Origin: Alphaproteobacteria bacterium
GTDB taxonomy: Bacteria > Pseudomonadota > Alphaproteobacteria > UBA9219
Assembly: GCA_028691835.1 (NCBI GenBank)
Contig: JAQUYN010000003.1
Location: forward strand, 1 to 64,000
Length of the DNA stretch: 64,000 nucleotides
Reading direction: 5' to 3'
A program made the translations under genes and the position numbers. The number at the start of each line of letters is the position of its first letter. Within the stretch, counting starts at the first letter, position 1. Below are positions 10,263 to 35,795 of the stretch, one piece after another. The notes under the pieces are model-generated. The model made no database searches. It was not told the DNA's origin and saw only the letters and a list, made by a program, of their open reading frames with translations.

Positions 10263-10277
10263 GTTCTTTTTTTGTTC
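10263..10277. promoter_or_regulatory. LexA operator (SOS box) between ssb and uvrA
   Basis: GTTCTTTTTTTGTTC is an exact match to GTTC-N7-GTTC, the LexA-binding direct repeat of alphaproteobacteria. It lies in the 125-base spacer between the divergent ssb and uvrA starts, about 25 bases upstream of a TATAAA hexamer (10303-10308). Placement on a known DNA-damage gene makes a real operator likely. Confidence 0.85.
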
Positions 10278-10313: not shown

Positions 10314-13157
10314 ATGAGTAAAACGATTCCAGAAAATAAAACGATCCATGTTCGCGGGGCGCGTGAGCATAACCTCAAGAACATCGACGTTGTGATTCCC
10401 CGCGACCAGCTGGTCGTGATTACGGGCCTGAGCGGATCGGGCAAATCCTCCCTCGCCTTTGACACGATCTATGCCGAAGGCCAACGCCGCTATGTTGAGA
10501 GCCTGTCCGCCTATGCCCGCCAATTCTTGGAGATGATGCAAAAACCGGATGTGGACGCCATCGACGGCCTGTCCCCCGCCATCTCGATTGAACAAAAAAC
10601 GACCTCACGCAATCCACGTTCAACGGTGGGAACCGTTACCGAAATTTACGATTACATGCGCCTTTTATTTGCGCGAATCGGCGTACCCTATTCCCCTGCC
10701 ACGGGCCTGCCAATTGAAAGCCAAACCGTTTCACAAATAGTAGATCGCATCGCCGCAATGCCCGAAGGCACCAAGCTTTTGATCCTTGCCCCCATCGTAA
10801 GAGGCCGCAAAGGCGAATACCGCAAAGAACTTGCAGACCTTCAAAAACAAGGCTTTCAACGCGTCAAAATCGATGGCGAAGTCTATGACATCGATGAAGC
10901 CCCTCCCCTCAACAAAAAAGTCAAACACGACATTGCCGTGGTTGTGGATCGCCTCGTCGTCAAACCGGATATGGGCCATCGTCTGGCCGATTCCGTTGAA
11001 ACATCGTTGCATCTTGCCGATGGATTGATGTTCGCCGAAAACGCAATGACACATGAGATCACCACCTTTTCATCCAAGTTTGCCTGCCCCGTCAGTGGCT
11101 TTACCATTGACGAGATTGAACCACGCCTCTTTTCCTTCAACAGCCCACATGGGGCCTGTCCCGTTTGTGATGGCCTTGGCGAAAAGCTGTCCTTTGATCC
11201 CACTTTGGTCGTGCCAGACGAAAAACTCAGCCTCAACGAAGGCGCGCTCGCACCATGGAAAACGACGTTTGCGGCGTTCTATCAAAACACGCTGGCCGCG
11301 CTGACCAAACATTATAAGCAAAGCATGGAAACACCGTGGCATAAACTGTCCGCCGATTGCCGTGAGGCCATCCTTTACGGCACGGGCGAGACATCCATTA
11401 AAATAGCCTACGACGACAGCTCTCGCGCCTATCAAACCAATAAACCCTTCGAAGGCGTGATCCCCAATCTGGCGCGTCGCTGGCGCGAGACAGAGAGCAA
11501 CTGGATCCGCGAAGAAATCAGCCGCTATCAATCCTCCATCCCCTGCGAGGCATGTAAAGGGCACCGCCTGAAGCCGGAGGCCTTGGCCGTGAAAATTGCA
11601 GGCCTTCACATCAGCAACGTCGCCGCCTTTTCCATTGTAGAAGCCGGAAAATGGTTTGCTGCTCTCAATAAAAAACTGACGCAAAAACAGCGCGACATTG
11701 CGGCGCGTATCCTCAAAGAAATCAATGAACGGCTTGGGTTTCTCAATAATGTCGGCCTGTCCTATCTGTCGCTTGCGCGTGCGAGCGGCACACTTTCAGG
11801 CGGCGAAAGCCAACGCATCCGTCTTGCCTCGCAAATCGGATCGGGACTGACGGGTGTTCTATATGTTCTGGACGAACCGTCTATCGGCCTGCATCAACGC
11901 GACAATGATCGCCTGCTTGAAACGCTGAAACGCTTGCGCGACCTTGGCAACACTGTCCTCGTTGTCGAACATGACGAAGACGCTATCCGCGCCGCCGATT
12001 ATCTAATCGACATGGGGCCCGGCGCCGGCATACATGGCGGCCATGTGGTCGCAGCGGGAACGCCGCCTCGGGTCCTTAAATGCAAAGAAAGCCTCACAGC
12101 CCAATATCTGACAGGCAAAAAATCTATTCCTATCCCTACGCGTCGCCGCAAAGGACGCAAAGGCGAAGGACTCGAGATTTTTGGCGCACGCGAGAACAAC
12201 CTGAAAAATCTGCGCGTCAAATTCCCGCTTGGCATTCTAACCTGCGTCACAGGCGTATCGGGCAGCGGCAAATCCACACTCGTCAACGAAACACTTTATA
12301 AAGCCCTTGCCAAAACGATCAACAAAGCCCGCGCCATTCCCGGAGCGCATGACGAAATCAAGGGCATCCAATATATCGACAAAATTATCGACATTGACCA
12401 ATCCCCCATCGGGCGCACGCCACGCTCGAACCCCGCGACCTATACGGGCGCGTTCACACCCATTCGCGATTGGTTCGCGGCTCTGCCAGAATCCAAAGCA
12501 CGCGGCTATGGGCCGGGGCGCTTCTCGTTCAATGTCAAGGGCGGACGCTGTGAAGCTTGCGAAGGCGATGGCGTTACCAAGATCGAGATGCATTTCCTGC
12601 CGGACGTTTATGTGACCTGTGACGTGTGCCACGGACGACGCTATAACCGCGAAACCTTAGAGATTTTGTATCGCGGAAAATCTATCGCGGATGTTCTCGA
12701 TATGACAGTCGAAGAAGGTGCAATCTTTTTCGCCGCCGTTCCATCCCTGCACGACAAACTGCAAACATTGGAACGCGTCGGCCTCGGTTACGTCAAGATT
12801 GGACAAGCCGCCACGACACTTTCGGGTGGTGAGGCCCAACGCGTCAAGCTCGCCAAAGAGCTTTCCAAACGGGCGACAGGCAAAACGCTTTATATTCTGG
12901 ATGAACCCACAACGGGGCTGCACTTTGACGATGTGCGCAAATTGATGGAAGTGCTGCACGAGCTGGTCGATCAAGGCAATACCATCATCGTGATCGAGCA
13001 TAATTTGGAAGTTATCAAGACCGCCGATCACATCATCGACCTCGGCCCTGAAGGTGGGGACGGTGGCGGCCATATTGTCGCCACCGGCACCCCGGAAGAA
13101 ATCATCGCCAACAAAGCCAGCATAACAGGTCAATACCTGAAGTGCTGTCTTCGTTAG
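10314..13157 (+). CDS. uvrA: Excinuclease ABC subunit A
   Basis: This 947-residue protein finds DNA lesions and loads UvrB in nucleotide excision repair. It has two ABC ATPase halves: Walker [15 protein letters not shown] near residue 38 and [14 protein letters not shown] in the second half; signature motifs [13 protein letters not shown] and [13 protein letters not shown]; Walker [14 protein letters not shown] and [13 protein letters not shown]. Zinc-binding cysteine pairs are seen at [15 protein letters not shown] and [16 protein letters not shown]. The ATG has no clear ribosome site and lies only 6 bases after a TATAAA, so a leaderless or very short-leader transcript is possible. It is controlled by the SOS box upstream. 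Confidence 0.98.
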
Positions 13158-13591
13158 TCGCACCCACACGTATAGGCGTAAATGGGTCCGGCATATTTGG
13201 CCACCCCATTCCTCACAGCCCAAACATCGGCAGGATCTTCTTTATCAAGCAAAGGGAACTGACGACGTGACTGTTCGAAAGAAAGCGCCACACCATCTTG
13301 TGGTGAAGAAGCGACACCAACCACACCATCCATACCAAGGCTTTCTGCCGCCCTGATCTCCTCAAGTGACATTGTGTTAACCGGAGCCGCACATGGATTT
13401 ACGGCATTAAAAAACCCCCGGCTGTGGGGGGTGGCAGTGGCTCGAAGGGCTTTGGTGGGTACAGTCATCTCAATAAACCCACTTTTTGCAACTGTCGGAT
13501 GCTTTCGATAAACACTAGACGTCGGTTTCCAAGTACCGTCTTCCGTCGGCATTGGAAACATTGTTATTAAGGATGGGGGCATTTTCGTCAT
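13154..13591 (-). CDS. Hypothetical protein convergent with uvrA
   Basis: A 145-residue protein I do not recognise. The ATG at 13591 has GGGAG 9 bases upstream, which supports a real gene. There is no signal peptide. A middle helix ([20 protein letters not shown]) is followed by a charged stretch ([16 protein letters not shown]) and the chain ends in YAYTCGCD, a C-terminal cysteine pair. Its last four bases overlap the end of uvrA on the other strand. A GC-rich hairpin inside the gene (around 13415-13430) does not break the frame. Confidence 0.5.
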
Positions 13592-13806: not shown

Positions 13807-14007
13807 AACCCGAATAACAATTGATTTTTTAAGGTATCCAGTTTTTACTTAGATCAATTTGAAGTGAGATCGGCCAAATCAAAAAAGTAACCGCTTGACC
13901 TCTTTGCCAGTCGAGCAGATTCACGGGAACGGTTGCCGAATGAAGCCGTCAATCTTATCACGATCCACTTATCTATTTGCGCCTTGTACAGCCAAAGGAA
14001 AAACATT

Positions 14008-15531
14008 GTGACAACGCCAAAATCTCTGACAGACACTGCGCTTTCCCGCTTACGCGCATTGACGACAGGTAATGATGTTGCACCCGACCTTATCCATTTT
14101 ATCGACAGCGATGAACAAACCTATACAGTCTGTGGCAAACTCACCCTAACGCCCCACCTTTCCGTTAAAAGCCGGATGGTTCTGGGGCGCGTTAAAGGGA
14201 AAGACCGCAAAATCCTCTCTTCATTCGAAGAGCTCAACACAGAAATAAAAACGCTCGAGAAGGAATTCAAAAGCGACGCAACATGGCTGGACACAGCGCT
14301 TGAAGAATTGGAAAAGGAAAGCGGTCACGGCTGGGGCCACACAGACGCGCTTTTAACATGGTCAAAAAAAACAACCCTGTTGGCAGCAACCGAAAACTGC
14401 CCCACATGTCGAGGCTCTGCCCAACGAACATGTCCCGAATGTAAAGGGCTTGGCACACTTCATTGTCATTACTGCGAAGGACGTGGCCACGAGCTTTGTA
14501 TTCTTTGCGCAGGGTCAGGAAAAGATCCTCACGATCAACAAAAGCAATGCCCTACATGTCAAGGCACACGCTATTCCCTTTGCCGCTTTTGTCAGGGAAC
14601 AGGTAAACTTCCTTGCCCAACATGCAACCATCAAGGGACTATTCTTTGTGCCGATTGCAAAGGAACGGGCTGCATCAGCCGTGAAGCCATGATCAAGCAA
14701 GCCGCCGATATGCAGTTCACGCTTCACTCAACGGCAGACCTTCCAAGTGGCCTTTTGCGCACGATTTCCCGCATCGGCGATGAGAAACTCCATAAAGGCC
14801 ACGCCGACATCACAATGCGCCCCTTGTCTGACGAAGAGAAAAAGGACAAGGCCGTGATAGACATCACACTTGAAGCCCAAATCCCTTATGCCGACATCAA
14901 AGTGCGCTTTGGAAAACGCGCTATACTTGTGTCATGCTTTGGCAAAAGAGCCGTCCTTTCTGGCGTTCCGCCCTTCTTGGACGATGCGCTTAAAACGCCA
15001 AGAGAGCACCTCGCGCAAACAGCCAAAGGAACGCTCCCTTTAGAAGGCGCATTACAAACACGCCTTCTTCGTGAAGCCTTGGACCTCTCTCTATCCGGGA
15101 AAAACAGCCCCAACTCCTTGCGCCGTCTCTATCCCATCGGCCTTTCTGCAAACGTAGCCGCAGAAATTATGAACAATTTGCGCCTCGCCTTGAAAGTCGC
15201 CACGAGCCGCACACGTCTCATTTCTGCAGCTTTGACTGTTCTTTTCTCAACGCTTCTTTTCAGTGGGCTTTTCTTCACACCTACTTTCATGACCGTAACG
15301 CAGGGCCTCACCGCCATCCCCCTTATGGCTGCCATCATTGTCATCCCGCTTCTTGTCATAGCCGCCAGTTGGCTTGTGCTTCTTCATTCAACCAAGTGGG
15401 GGCTTCACCGCCGTTTCCCCACAGCAACGGTCGCGCTTTCACAAAGCATCGGAAAAACAGGCTATTCGGCGCTGGCTCTTATCGCCGCGCTCTATCTCGT
15501 CATTTTGTATTTTTCAGGACACCTCGTCTAA
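14008..15531 (+). CDS. Membrane protein with an eight-unit DnaJ-type zinc-finger domain
   Basis: The 507-residue product has three parts. Residues about 131-222 hold eight CxxC units, most in the form CxxCxGxG (CPTCRGSA, CPECKGLG, CHYCEGRG, CILCAGSG, CPTCQGTR, CRFCQGTG, CPTCNHQG, CADCKGTG), twice the four found in DnaJ; they should bind four zinc ions. There is no J domain (no HPD). Residues about 405-503 form three membrane helices. The N-terminal 130 residues are soluble and unfamiliar. I chose the GTG at 14008 because AAAGGA precedes it; an in-frame ATG at 13933 lacks one. A redox or protein-folding role at the membrane is only an inference. Confidence 0.75.
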   Translation: MTTPKSLTDTALSRLRALTTGNDVAPDLIHFIDSDEQTYTVCGKLTLTPHLSVKSRMVLGRVKGKDRKILSSFEELNTEIKTLEKEFKSDATWLDTALEELEKESGHGWGHTDALLTWSKKTTLLAATENCPTCRGSAQRTCPECKGLGTLHCHYCEGRGHELCILCAGSGKDPHDQQKQCPTCQGTRYSLCRFCQGTGKLPCPTCNHQGTILCADCKGTGCISREAMIKQAADMQFTLHSTADLPSGLLRTISRIGDEKLHKGHADITMRPLSDEEKKDKAVIDITLEAQIPYADIKVRFGKRAILVSCFGKRAVLSGVPPFLDDALKTPREHLAQTAKGTLPLEGALQTRLLREALDLSLSGKNSPNSLRRLYPIGLSANVAAEIMNNLRLALKVATSRTRLISAALTVLFSTLLFSGLFFTPTFMTVTQGLTAIPLMAAIIVIPLLVIAASWLVLLHSTKWGLHRRFPTATVALSQSIGKTGYSALALIAALYLVILYFSGHLV

Positions 15532-30095: not shown

Positions 30096-30389
30096 TTACT
30101 TGTTAAAATCTTCCGCCAAATCACGCCAAACAGGATTGAATGACTTGATCCGGTGCGTCTTCCACTCACGTTTCCATGCCTTGATGCATTTCTCCCGATG
30201 AATAGCCTCGTCAATGGTGGAGTATTCTTCATAATACACCAAACACTTAAGGCCATATTTCTTAGAGAAGCCGGGATACACACCCGTTTTATGTTCCCAG
30301 ATTCTTCGCGCAAGATCACTGGTAACACCAGTGTACAGCGTCCCATAAGGTTTGTCCGTAATGATATAGACCCAAGACCGTTTCTCCAT
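30096..30389 (-). CDS. GIY-YIG nuclease-family protein, copy 1 (inserted after nuoI)
   Basis: A 97-residue protein consisting of a single GIY-YIG domain of the UPF0213/YhbQ-like type. Motifs: SWVYIITDKPYGTLYTGVTS (the VYI and LYTG halves), catalytic Arg in DLARRIWEHKTG, and the conserved Glu in EAIHREKCIKAWKREWK. The true start is ATG at 30389, exactly 13 bases after the nuoI stop. It is in the same direction as nuo and 83 percent or so similar in its first hundred bases to copy 2 at 34208-34498 by eye. The domain cuts or nicks DNA in other families; here a homing or module-mobility role is inferred. Confidence 0.9.
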   Translation of the reverse strand: MEKRSWVYIITDKPYGTLYTGVTSDLARRIWEHKTGVYPGFSKKYGLKCLVYYEEYSTIDEAIHREKCIKAWKREWKTHRIKSFNPVWRDLAEDFNK

Positions 30390-30402
30390 AATGGCCCATT
30401 CC

Positions 30403-30894
30403 TCATCCCTTCCTCCGATCCGCCGCAAGGTTGGCGGCAAGAACAGATTCCCAACGATCGCCATTCGCAAGCAACCGCTCCTTCGTATAAAGCAGCTCCT
30501 CATGCGTCAAGGTTGAGTATTCAAAGTTCGGCCCCTCAACAATCGCTTCGACGGGGCAAACTTCTTGGCACAAACCGCAGTTGATGCATTTGGTCATATC
30601 AATGTCATAGCGCGTGGTGCAACGCGAGCCATCGGCAGCTGGCGCAGCTTCAATCGTAATGGCAAGAGCGGGACACACGGCCTCACATAATTTACACGCA
30701 ATACACCGCTCGCTTCCATCAGCATAACGGCGCAGCGCATGCTCACCACGAAAGCGCGGACTGATACGGCCCTTTTCGTAAGGATAGTTGATCGTAACCT
30801 TGGGCCTAAACATATAACGAAAAGTCAGCGCAAGACCGGACAATAAATCCAGACCCAGCCAATATTTCCAGCGGCGTTTGAGAAGGTTCATCAT
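30403..30894 (-). CDS. nuoI: NADH-quinone oxidoreductase subunit I
   Basis: The 163-residue 8-iron ferredoxin-like subunit holding clusters N6a and N6b. The two binding sets are [16 protein letters not shown] and [16 protein letters not shown], with [17 protein letters not shown] before them. I place the start at ATG 30894, preceded by AAGGA; an ATG at 30906 overlapping the nuoH stop is the alternative. An inserted GIY-YIG gene begins 13 bases after the stop. Confidence 0.96.
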
Positions 30895-34207: not shown

Positions 34208-34498
34208 TTAGAGATGCCCTTCACCACAATCTTTCCACCTGTGATTAACCTTGTGAATAAGGTCAATTTTCCAGTCCCTTCTCCACTTCTTAATTTGTTT
34301 TTCACGCTGAATGGCTTCTTCAATTCGTGCGTACTCTTCATGATAAACGAGCAACTTAAGGCCATAGCGTTTTGAGAAACCAACATACATCCCCGTTTTG
34401 TGTTCCCAGATGCGACGCGCAAGATCATTTGTGACACCAACGTACAACGTGCCATAAGGCTTGTCCGTAATGATATACACCCAATACCGTTTTTCCAT
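34208..34498 (-). CDS. GIY-YIG nuclease-family protein, copy 2 (inserted after nuoF)
   Basis: A 96-residue single-domain GIY-YIG protein, close homologue of copy 1. Motifs: YWVYIITDKPYGTLYVGVTN, DLARRIWEHKTGMY and EAIQREKQIKKWRRDWK. The start is ATG at 34498, again exactly 13 bases after the TGA of the upstream nuo gene, here nuoF. Same direction as the operon. The nested palindrome at 34050-34180 follows. Differences from copy 1 are spread along the gene and largely conservative, so both copies appear to have been under selection to keep the protein. Confidence 0.9.
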   Translation of the reverse strand: MEKRYWVYIITDKPYGTLYVGVTNDLARRIWEHKTGMYVGFSKRYGLKLLVYHEEYARIEEAIQREKQIKKWRRDWKIDLIHKVNHRWKDCGEGHL

Positions 34499-34511
34499 TT
34501 TGACCTCATCA

Positions 34512-35795
34512 TCATGCCGCCCCCTTGGCTTGCGCACGCGCTCTGATAATACGTTCTTCCATAACGGGTCGGAAATGTCGGATCAAACCTTGCACAGGCC
34601 ACGCAGCAGCATCACCAAGGGCGCAAATCGTGCGGCCCTCGATCTCTTTGGTCAAATCCCATAGCGTATCGATTTCTTCGACCGTCGCATCACCGCGCAC
34701 CATCCGCTGCATCGTACGATAAATCCATCCTGTGCCCTCACGGCACGGTGTGCATTGGCCACAACTTTCATGCATATAAAAACGGCTAAGGCGCGCAATG
34801 GCCGCGATAATATCGGTGGATTGATCCATCACAATCACACCTGCCGAGCCAAGCGCAGACCCCACCGCCGAAAGCCCGTCATAGTCCATAATAGCGTCTT
34901 CGCACAGATGCTTTGGCAAAACAGGAACCGACGAGCCTCCGGGAATAATGGCAAGCAAATGATCCCATCCGCCGCGCACACCGCCAGCATGTTTCTCGAT
35001 CAATTCACGAAGCGGAATTCCCATCGACTCTTCAACATTACAAGGCGTGTTGACGTGACCTGAAATGCAAAACAATTTCGTTCCCGCATTCTTGGGGCGA
35101 CCAATACTTGCATACCACTTGGCACTGCGCCGCAGAATCGTTGGCACGCTTGCAATCGTCTCAACATTATTCACAGTCGTCGGGCACGCATAAAGACCTG
35201 CATTCGCGGGAAAAGGCGGCTTGTTGCGAGGCTGCCCCTTCTTGCCCTCAAGGCTTTCCAACAACGCGGTTTCCTCGCCGCAGACATAAGCCCCGGCGCC
35301 GCGATGCAAATAAATGTCGCAATCCCAACCAGAGCCACAAGCATTCTTGCCAATCAAGCCAGCCTCATAAGCTTCGTTGATCGCATGCTGCAAATGCCGG
35401 GCTTCATTCACAAACTCACCGCGAATATAAATATAAACCGTGTGCGCATGAACAGCGACCGCCGCGCAAACAGCACCCTCCAGCAACAAATGCGGATCAA
35501 AGCGCAGAATATCGCGATCCTTGCACGTACCCGGCTCGGACTCGTCGGCGTTGACAATCAAATAATGTGGACGTTCTGAGGGTTTCGGCATAAACGACCA
35601 TTTCAGGCCTGTACCGAATCCAGCCCCGCCACGTCCGCGCAAACCCGATGCCTTAATCTCCTCAATAATCGCAGCCGATCCTTCTTGAATGATCGCAACC
35701 GTATTATCCCAAACGCCACGCCTACGCGCCCCTTCCAAAGTCCACGGGGCTTGCCCATACAGGTTTGTAAAAATGTGATCCTTATCCGCTAGCAT
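34512..35795 (-). CDS. nuoF: NADH-quinone oxidoreductase subunit F
   Basis: The 427-residue NADH- and FMN-binding subunit with cluster N3. Features: [20 protein letters not shown] (NADH/FMN glycine-rich loop), [38 protein letters not shown], and the 4Fe-4S set [12 protein letters not shown] with a fourth Cys in [11 protein letters not shown]. The ATG at 35795 overlaps nuoE by 7 bases; GGAGGG lies just upstream. Confidence 0.98.

Follow-up and report, generated by a model that had tools for sequence, protein, structure and literature searches.

The 64,000-nucleotide stretch of DNA that we analysed (hereafter, the window) carries a real, conserved gene whose product is undescribed as a family. 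This product contains an array of eight regularly spaced CxxC units, which we call the ladder. Comparison of homologous sequences supports the view that the ladder is one long antiparallel hairpin with two arms, in which unit 1 would pair with unit 8, 2 with 7, 3 with 6 and 4 with 5.

The ladder gene and its family

The ladder gene starts with GTG at 14008 and ends with a stop codon at 15529-15531. An earlier note on this DNA had described the reading frame at 14008-15531 as encoding a membrane protein with eight CxxC units and no J domain, and both the frame and the units were found there. The features discussed below, all on the forward strand, are as follows.

10263..10277, +, LexA-box-like GTTC-N7-GTTC, 51 bp before uvrA; comparable position before uvrA in relatives L041, L043 and L045
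10314..13157, +, uvrA, the recurrent upstream neighbour, 854 bp from the ladder gene in the window
13994..13999, +, Shine-Dalgarno-like AAAGGA, 8 bases 5′ of the GTG (from sequence)
14008..15531, +, whole ladder gene, 507 amino acids, GTG start; homologues keep the frame
14008..14346, +, N-terminal alpha/beta domain, residues 1-113, without family match; also recognised in alphaproteobacteria of other families
14347..14397, +, long strand leading into the ladder, residues 114-130 (AlphaFold2/DSSP)
14398..14508, +, ladder arm 1, CxxC units 1-4, residues 131-167, step 11
14509..14547, +, apex loop, residues 168-180, the main site of length variation among homologues
14548..14658, +, ladder arm 2, CxxC units 5-8, residues 181-217, step 11
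14671..14724, +, long strand that follows the ladder, residues 222-239 (AlphaFold2/DSSP)
14725..14961, +, beta domain C-terminal to the ladder, residues 240-318, without solved relative
14974..15147, +, helical domain, residues 323-380, modelled with high confidence, without solved relative
15217..15273, +, predicted membrane helix 1 (TM1), residues 404-422
15328..15384, +, predicted membrane helix 2 (TM2), residues 441-459
15472..15528, +, predicted membrane helix 3 (TM3), residues 489-507

The CxxC units begin at residues 131, 142, 153, 164, 181, 192, 203 and 214, and five of the eight match the full CxxCxGxG pattern. Their number is not due to chance, since 100,000 shuffles of the protein's own residues yielded at most six CxxC, a maximum reached in two shuffles. 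An alignment of 26 homologues from the window's order, which are 25-47% identical to the window protein, shows no variation at any of the 16 array cysteines, and the same holds for a wider set of 29 rows. As homologues hold both the frame and all 16 cysteines at this level of identity, we conclude that the gene is real.

Within its order (most likely Micavibrio-like), the ladder gene is present as a single copy in 30 of 33 genomes, including 20 of the 21 of good quality. Of 385 genomes sampled across the class, 14 have the gene, which occurs in seven families outside the window's order. Scanning genome contigs with an alignment of close relatives recovered 13 relatives, all in metagenome-assembled genomes and some of them labelled Micavibrio; a scan of genome contigs with the single protein gave no relative. 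A tblastn search against plasmids found relatives in Methylorubrum extorquens AM1 and in Azospirillum. In profile comparisons, the AM1 homologue, encoded at NC_012811.1, complement 635480-637117, is near full length (15-497 of 514, E = 2.6e-40), as is that of Azospirillum brasilense Sp7 (E = 7.4e-34 plus 1.2e-13). IMG/VR contained no relative of the protein. PHROGs returned weak matches only, to families of unknown function, and PADLOC returned none for the window protein, so that neither of these searches pointed to a phage or defence gene.

The earlier note had also stated that no bacterial family was known to have such a layout, and this was borne out in Pfam and NCBIfam, where no described family covers the window protein and no match to one of known function emerged. 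No model in either collection extends beyond the zinc part, and for the window protein the matches there fall below curated cut-offs: 22.1 bits for PF00684 (gathering score 32.7) and 19.4 bits for PF25436 (gathering score 27). A distant homologue, G154, is the only one to pass the PF00684 cut-off (33.5 vs 32.7). When the N-domain, the ladder and the C-domain were each given an HMM of their own, all three HMMs recognised other alphaproteobacterial members, and recognised those of AM1 and Azospirillum more weakly. In G154 the N-domain and ladder are matched, and the C-domain is not significant; in the distant G104 only the ladder is matched, with N- and C-domains not detected by their HMMs. Judged by these comparisons, the ladder protein forms an alphaproteobacterial family of its own, with a predicted architecture of N-domain, ladder, beta/helical domain and three membrane helices.

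Spacing, fold and orientation of the ladder

In most homologues the CxxC units are spaced 11-11-11-17-11-11-11. Loss of this cysteine spacing among homologues was looked for and did not emerge: the arms keep an exact 11-residue spacing in 35 of 39 homologues, and the four exceptions are insertions or extra units. Changes within arm 2 were seen in L019 and G154. In the homologue alignment, length changes and indels fall mostly at the apex, where the step is 15 to 19 residues (28 in G154). One homologue (L030, from genome G032) has two extra CxxC units exactly at the apex, spaced 17-15-17, which gives five units per arm. The AM1 homologue has six units, three per arm (11-10-20-11-11), and the Azospirillum array is shorter and degenerate.

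Covariation between the arms, calculated from 32 non-redundant arrays with phylogeny handled by APC and the redundancy cut only, peaks on the anti-diagonal that a hairpin would produce (p = 0.0004 in a targeted permutation test), while the register expected for tandem copies gives p = 0.98. An untargeted scan was not significant overall, though it too peaked at the hairpin position. Since the targeted band was chosen on structural grounds but after the untargeted scan had peaked there, the hairpin p value is somewhat optimistic. A tandem duplication of a four-unit domain is not supported, as the covariation register is antiparallel and does not link unit i with unit i+4. The suggestion of a doubled DnaJ-type domain in the earlier note thus stands as to number, the window protein having twice as many units as DnaJ, and not as to arrangement: the array is not two DnaJ domains in register or in tandem, but four units on each arm with an 11-residue step. 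From the apex-biased length changes and the covariation, we infer four zinc sites per chain.

The AlphaFold2 model of the window protein has a mean pLDDT of 89.7, and its two long strands (residues 114-130 and 222-239) flank the array directly, as would be expected for a hairpin array protruding from a single beta domain. With the whole model as query, Foldseek matched BSD2 (6ekb, E = 4.6e-3, probability 0.99) and the DnaJ cysteine-rich domain (CRD; 0.055), and matches in PDB and BFVD were confined to the zinc part. Modelled separately, residues 219-400 are also confident (pLDDT 88), and gave no fold match below E = 1. Judging from these models, no solved relative is detectable outside the zinc part. 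The best sequence matches by hmmsearch were likewise to BSD2 (1.1e-5) and the DnaJ CRD (1.1e-9).

The three C-terminal membrane helices that the earlier note had proposed correspond to hydrophobic stretches at about residues 404-422, 441-459 and 489-507. Among the 29 homologues for which three helices are predicted, K and R residues number 4.1 per 20 residues before TM1, 1.1 between TM1 and TM2, and 5.3 between TM2 and TM3, a distribution that puts the ladder on the cytoplasmic side of the membrane and the C-terminus on the outer side. This predicted orientation, with the N-side in, is thus supported by computation. Consistent with an external C-terminus, the tail that follows TM3 in Azospirillum weakly matches a peptidoglycan-binding model (20.5 bits, against a cut-off of 23).

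Comparison with known CxxCxGxG proteins

Like the central domain of DnaJ (PF00684), the ladder is built from CxxCxGxG, and unit 4 with the apex closely resembles DnaJ unit 1, both having a 17-residue gap. However, DnaJ has four units spaced 17-22-14, a J domain and substrate domains, whereas the window protein has eight units with an 11-residue step. As the earlier note had claimed, the J domain, the hallmark of DnaJ (type I Hsp40), is absent: Pfam and NCBIfam gave no J-domain match for the window protein, and the same genome encodes its DnaJ elsewhere, with an HPD motif and units spaced 17-22-14.

The closest resemblance in fold is to BSD2 and ZnJ2 (PF25436, PDB 6ekb and 9ci1), which are also J-less CxxCxGxG zinc hairpins with an 11-residue arm step (11-24-11 in BSD2). 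These are small, soluble plastid Rubisco chaperones with two units per arm, whereas the window protein is bacterial, has four units per arm, and, at 507 amino acids, has additional N- and C-domains and three membrane helices. ZnJ2 prevents aggregation without DnaK, and a cysteine-deficient mutant of it retains this holding activity (PMC5818400).

ORANGE (OR), compared here by its published layout only, shares with the window protein the lack of a J domain, the presence of membrane helices, and CxxCxGxG units placed three residues apart, which amounts to an 11-residue step (PMC6985574). It differs in being a plastid protein with two units per arm and two membrane helices before the zinc domain, where the window protein has three helices after an eight-unit domain. 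The membrane-bound ORANGE holds its client by its N-terminus and dimerises via half of its zinc domain (PMC6985574). The thylakoid proteins LQY1 and FIP likewise combine membrane attachment with a CxxCxGxG domain and no J domain (PMC4754418, PMC5915565), but are small plant proteins with a single anchor before a zinc domain of usual size. As plastids thus have membrane-bound J-less CxxCxGxG proteins, the layout of the window protein is not without precedent. By its spacing, we read the register of the window array as being of the BSD2/ORANGE type, not the DnaJ type.

Human SSUH2/fls485 (C3orf32), compared by description only, is eukaryotic and shares CxxCxGxG repeats, with at least four of them plus truncated ones (PMC2838759). 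Haloarchaeal plasmid proteins such as WP_222923734.1 have 18 CxxC units, mostly with a step of 11, followed by hydrophobic stretches; unlike the window family, they have a C-terminal winged-helix-like stretch, and the N- and C-domains of the window family were not detected in them. Such 18-CxxC proteins are syntenic in two Halobaculum species (L087:4491-6929 and L088:4347-6767), beside GMC oxidoreductase genes, and their winged-helix-like stretch matches AbiEi_4 at 16.6 bits, under the cut-off. CxxC arrays with the same 11-residue step also occur in a 642 kb uncultured phage (L089, LR756502.1).

Any likeness in working to the J-less plastid zinc chaperones is a separate matter from membership, and the window protein lacks defining features of DnaJ, BSD2 and ORANGE. 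The dimerisation of ORANGE through its zinc domain fits a different role, in which the ladder would be a structural scaffold and not a chaperone: a rigid arm by which the protein self-associates or docks a single fixed partner within an envelope complex. The number of rungs varies (three, four or five per arm) while the register of the arms is kept, as in a length-tuned spacer, and the probable peptidoglycan-binding tail of the Azospirillum version lies past the membrane helices. However, the only conserved partner gene found was uvrA, and that in a minority of loci, and we consider this role rather unlikely, if still a serious contender.

A thiol-disulfide oxidoreductase or redox switch at the membrane, from which zinc would be released on oxidation, also has precedents: the CxxCxGxG-repeat proteins LQY1, a thylakoid zinc protein, and CYO1 have disulfide-isomerase activity (PMC4754418), and DnaJ is a weak thiol reductase, an activity for which its zinc domain is needed (PMC4428491). 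Yet all 16 cysteines of the ladder show the same conservation and a regular pairing in which no reactive pair stands out, their predicted location is the cytoplasm, which is reducing, and no thioredoxin-type partner recurs in the gene neighbourhoods. The uniform conservation and the cytoplasmic location make a redox role less likely, and we regard it as improbable. The earlier note had suggested a thiol chaperone or redox sensor; with all 16 cysteines strictly conserved in an apparently cytoplasmic array, zinc in a structural role fits better than a reactive thiol switch.

Gene neighbourhood and candidate function

The genes around the ladder gene are mostly unrelated housekeeping genes that differ by genome, and in the neighbourhoods surveyed only uvrA recurs, with no chaperone or protease partner consistently nearby. 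Elsewhere in the window, a direct repeat of 250 nt (30160-30409 and 34269-34518, 75% identical) lies within the nuo (complex I) cluster, its copies falling in spurious-looking ORFs between nuo genes, and an ordinary rpsB RNA (Rfam RF01815, 841-946, minus strand, 48.3 bits) precedes the rpsB gene at 85-837.

The uvrA gene is adjacent to the ladder gene in 12 of 35 informative loci. In ten of these (eight genomes of family f1, G025 of f3 and G132 of f103), it precedes the ladder gene on the same strand at a distance of 45-199 bp, and in the other two it is divergently adjacent; in G078 it is about 1 kb away. In the window, an ORF of 145 amino acids (13154-13591, minus strand) stands between the two genes, and the shorter gap in the ten relatives implies a gain here or a loss there. 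The window and three relatives have LexA-like boxes before uvrA, although about two matches to this pattern are expected by chance across the window. These observations could suggest that the ladder protein is a DNA-repair accessory, which LexA would control together with uvrA and which would bind either DNA or UvrA at the membrane. However, 21 loci for which 1 kb or more of upstream sequence is available lack uvrA there, the gaps of 45-199 bp leave room for an independent promoter, and the arrangement may be inherited order only. The net charge of the ladder is also at best slightly positive (averaging +4 across some 100 residues). We assign a repair role little probability; the uvrA linkage may reflect old gene order or a shared SOS transcript, and our proposal does not rest on it.

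An inner-membrane zinc store or zinc sensor would be compatible with the membrane helices and the four proposed zinc sites per chain, but no zinc transporter or regulator gene recurs beside the ladder gene, and the rigid spacing suggests structure, not storage. This role appears very improbable.

By analogy with ZnJ2, ORANGE and LQY1, a membrane-tethered holdase or assembly scaffold is the most likely function. Specifically, we propose, with confidence that falls slightly short of even, that the ladder protein is an inner-membrane protein whose cytoplasmic zinc ladder serves as a membrane-tethered J-less holdase or assembly platform, with zinc in a structural role. Each 11-residue step would consist of a CxxCxGxG turn and a short strand, and the antiparallel arms would be clamped by four Zn(Cys)4 rungs (1-8, 2-7, 3-6 and 4-5) into a rigid ladder. 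This hairpin would project from a beta domain built of sequence on both its sides, and the three C-terminal helices would anchor the protein in the inner membrane, N-side in. It would then act like BSD2, ZnJ2 and ORANGE, binding clients at the membrane independently of ATP and DnaK, with zinc contributing to structure rather than catalysis. Client binding, the holdase role and zinc occupancy are all inferred here. Similar CxxC units are found in anti-TRAP, so a zinc domain alone is not proof of chaperone activity, and the location of a client-binding site is a guess, because no known match exists for the N-terminal, beta or helical domain.

If the proposal is true, J-less zinc chaperones, so far found mainly in plastids, would have in the ladder protein a membrane-tethered bacterial counterpart whose zinc hairpin is doubled in length. 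A broader and more speculative idea, which we find possible but doubtful, is that of a prokaryotic zinc ladder of tunable length, with three to five rungs per arm in the window-protein family and more in the haloarchaeal arrays, that acts as a rigid, projecting, membrane-anchored arm for holding proteins. Such an arm would be of a kind undescribed in bacteria, and important enough to be nearly universal in an order. The ladder protein is near-universal in its order and lies outside every curated family tested. As full-length members exist in M. extorquens AM1 and A. brasilense Sp7, which can be grown and manipulated, its function is directly testable.
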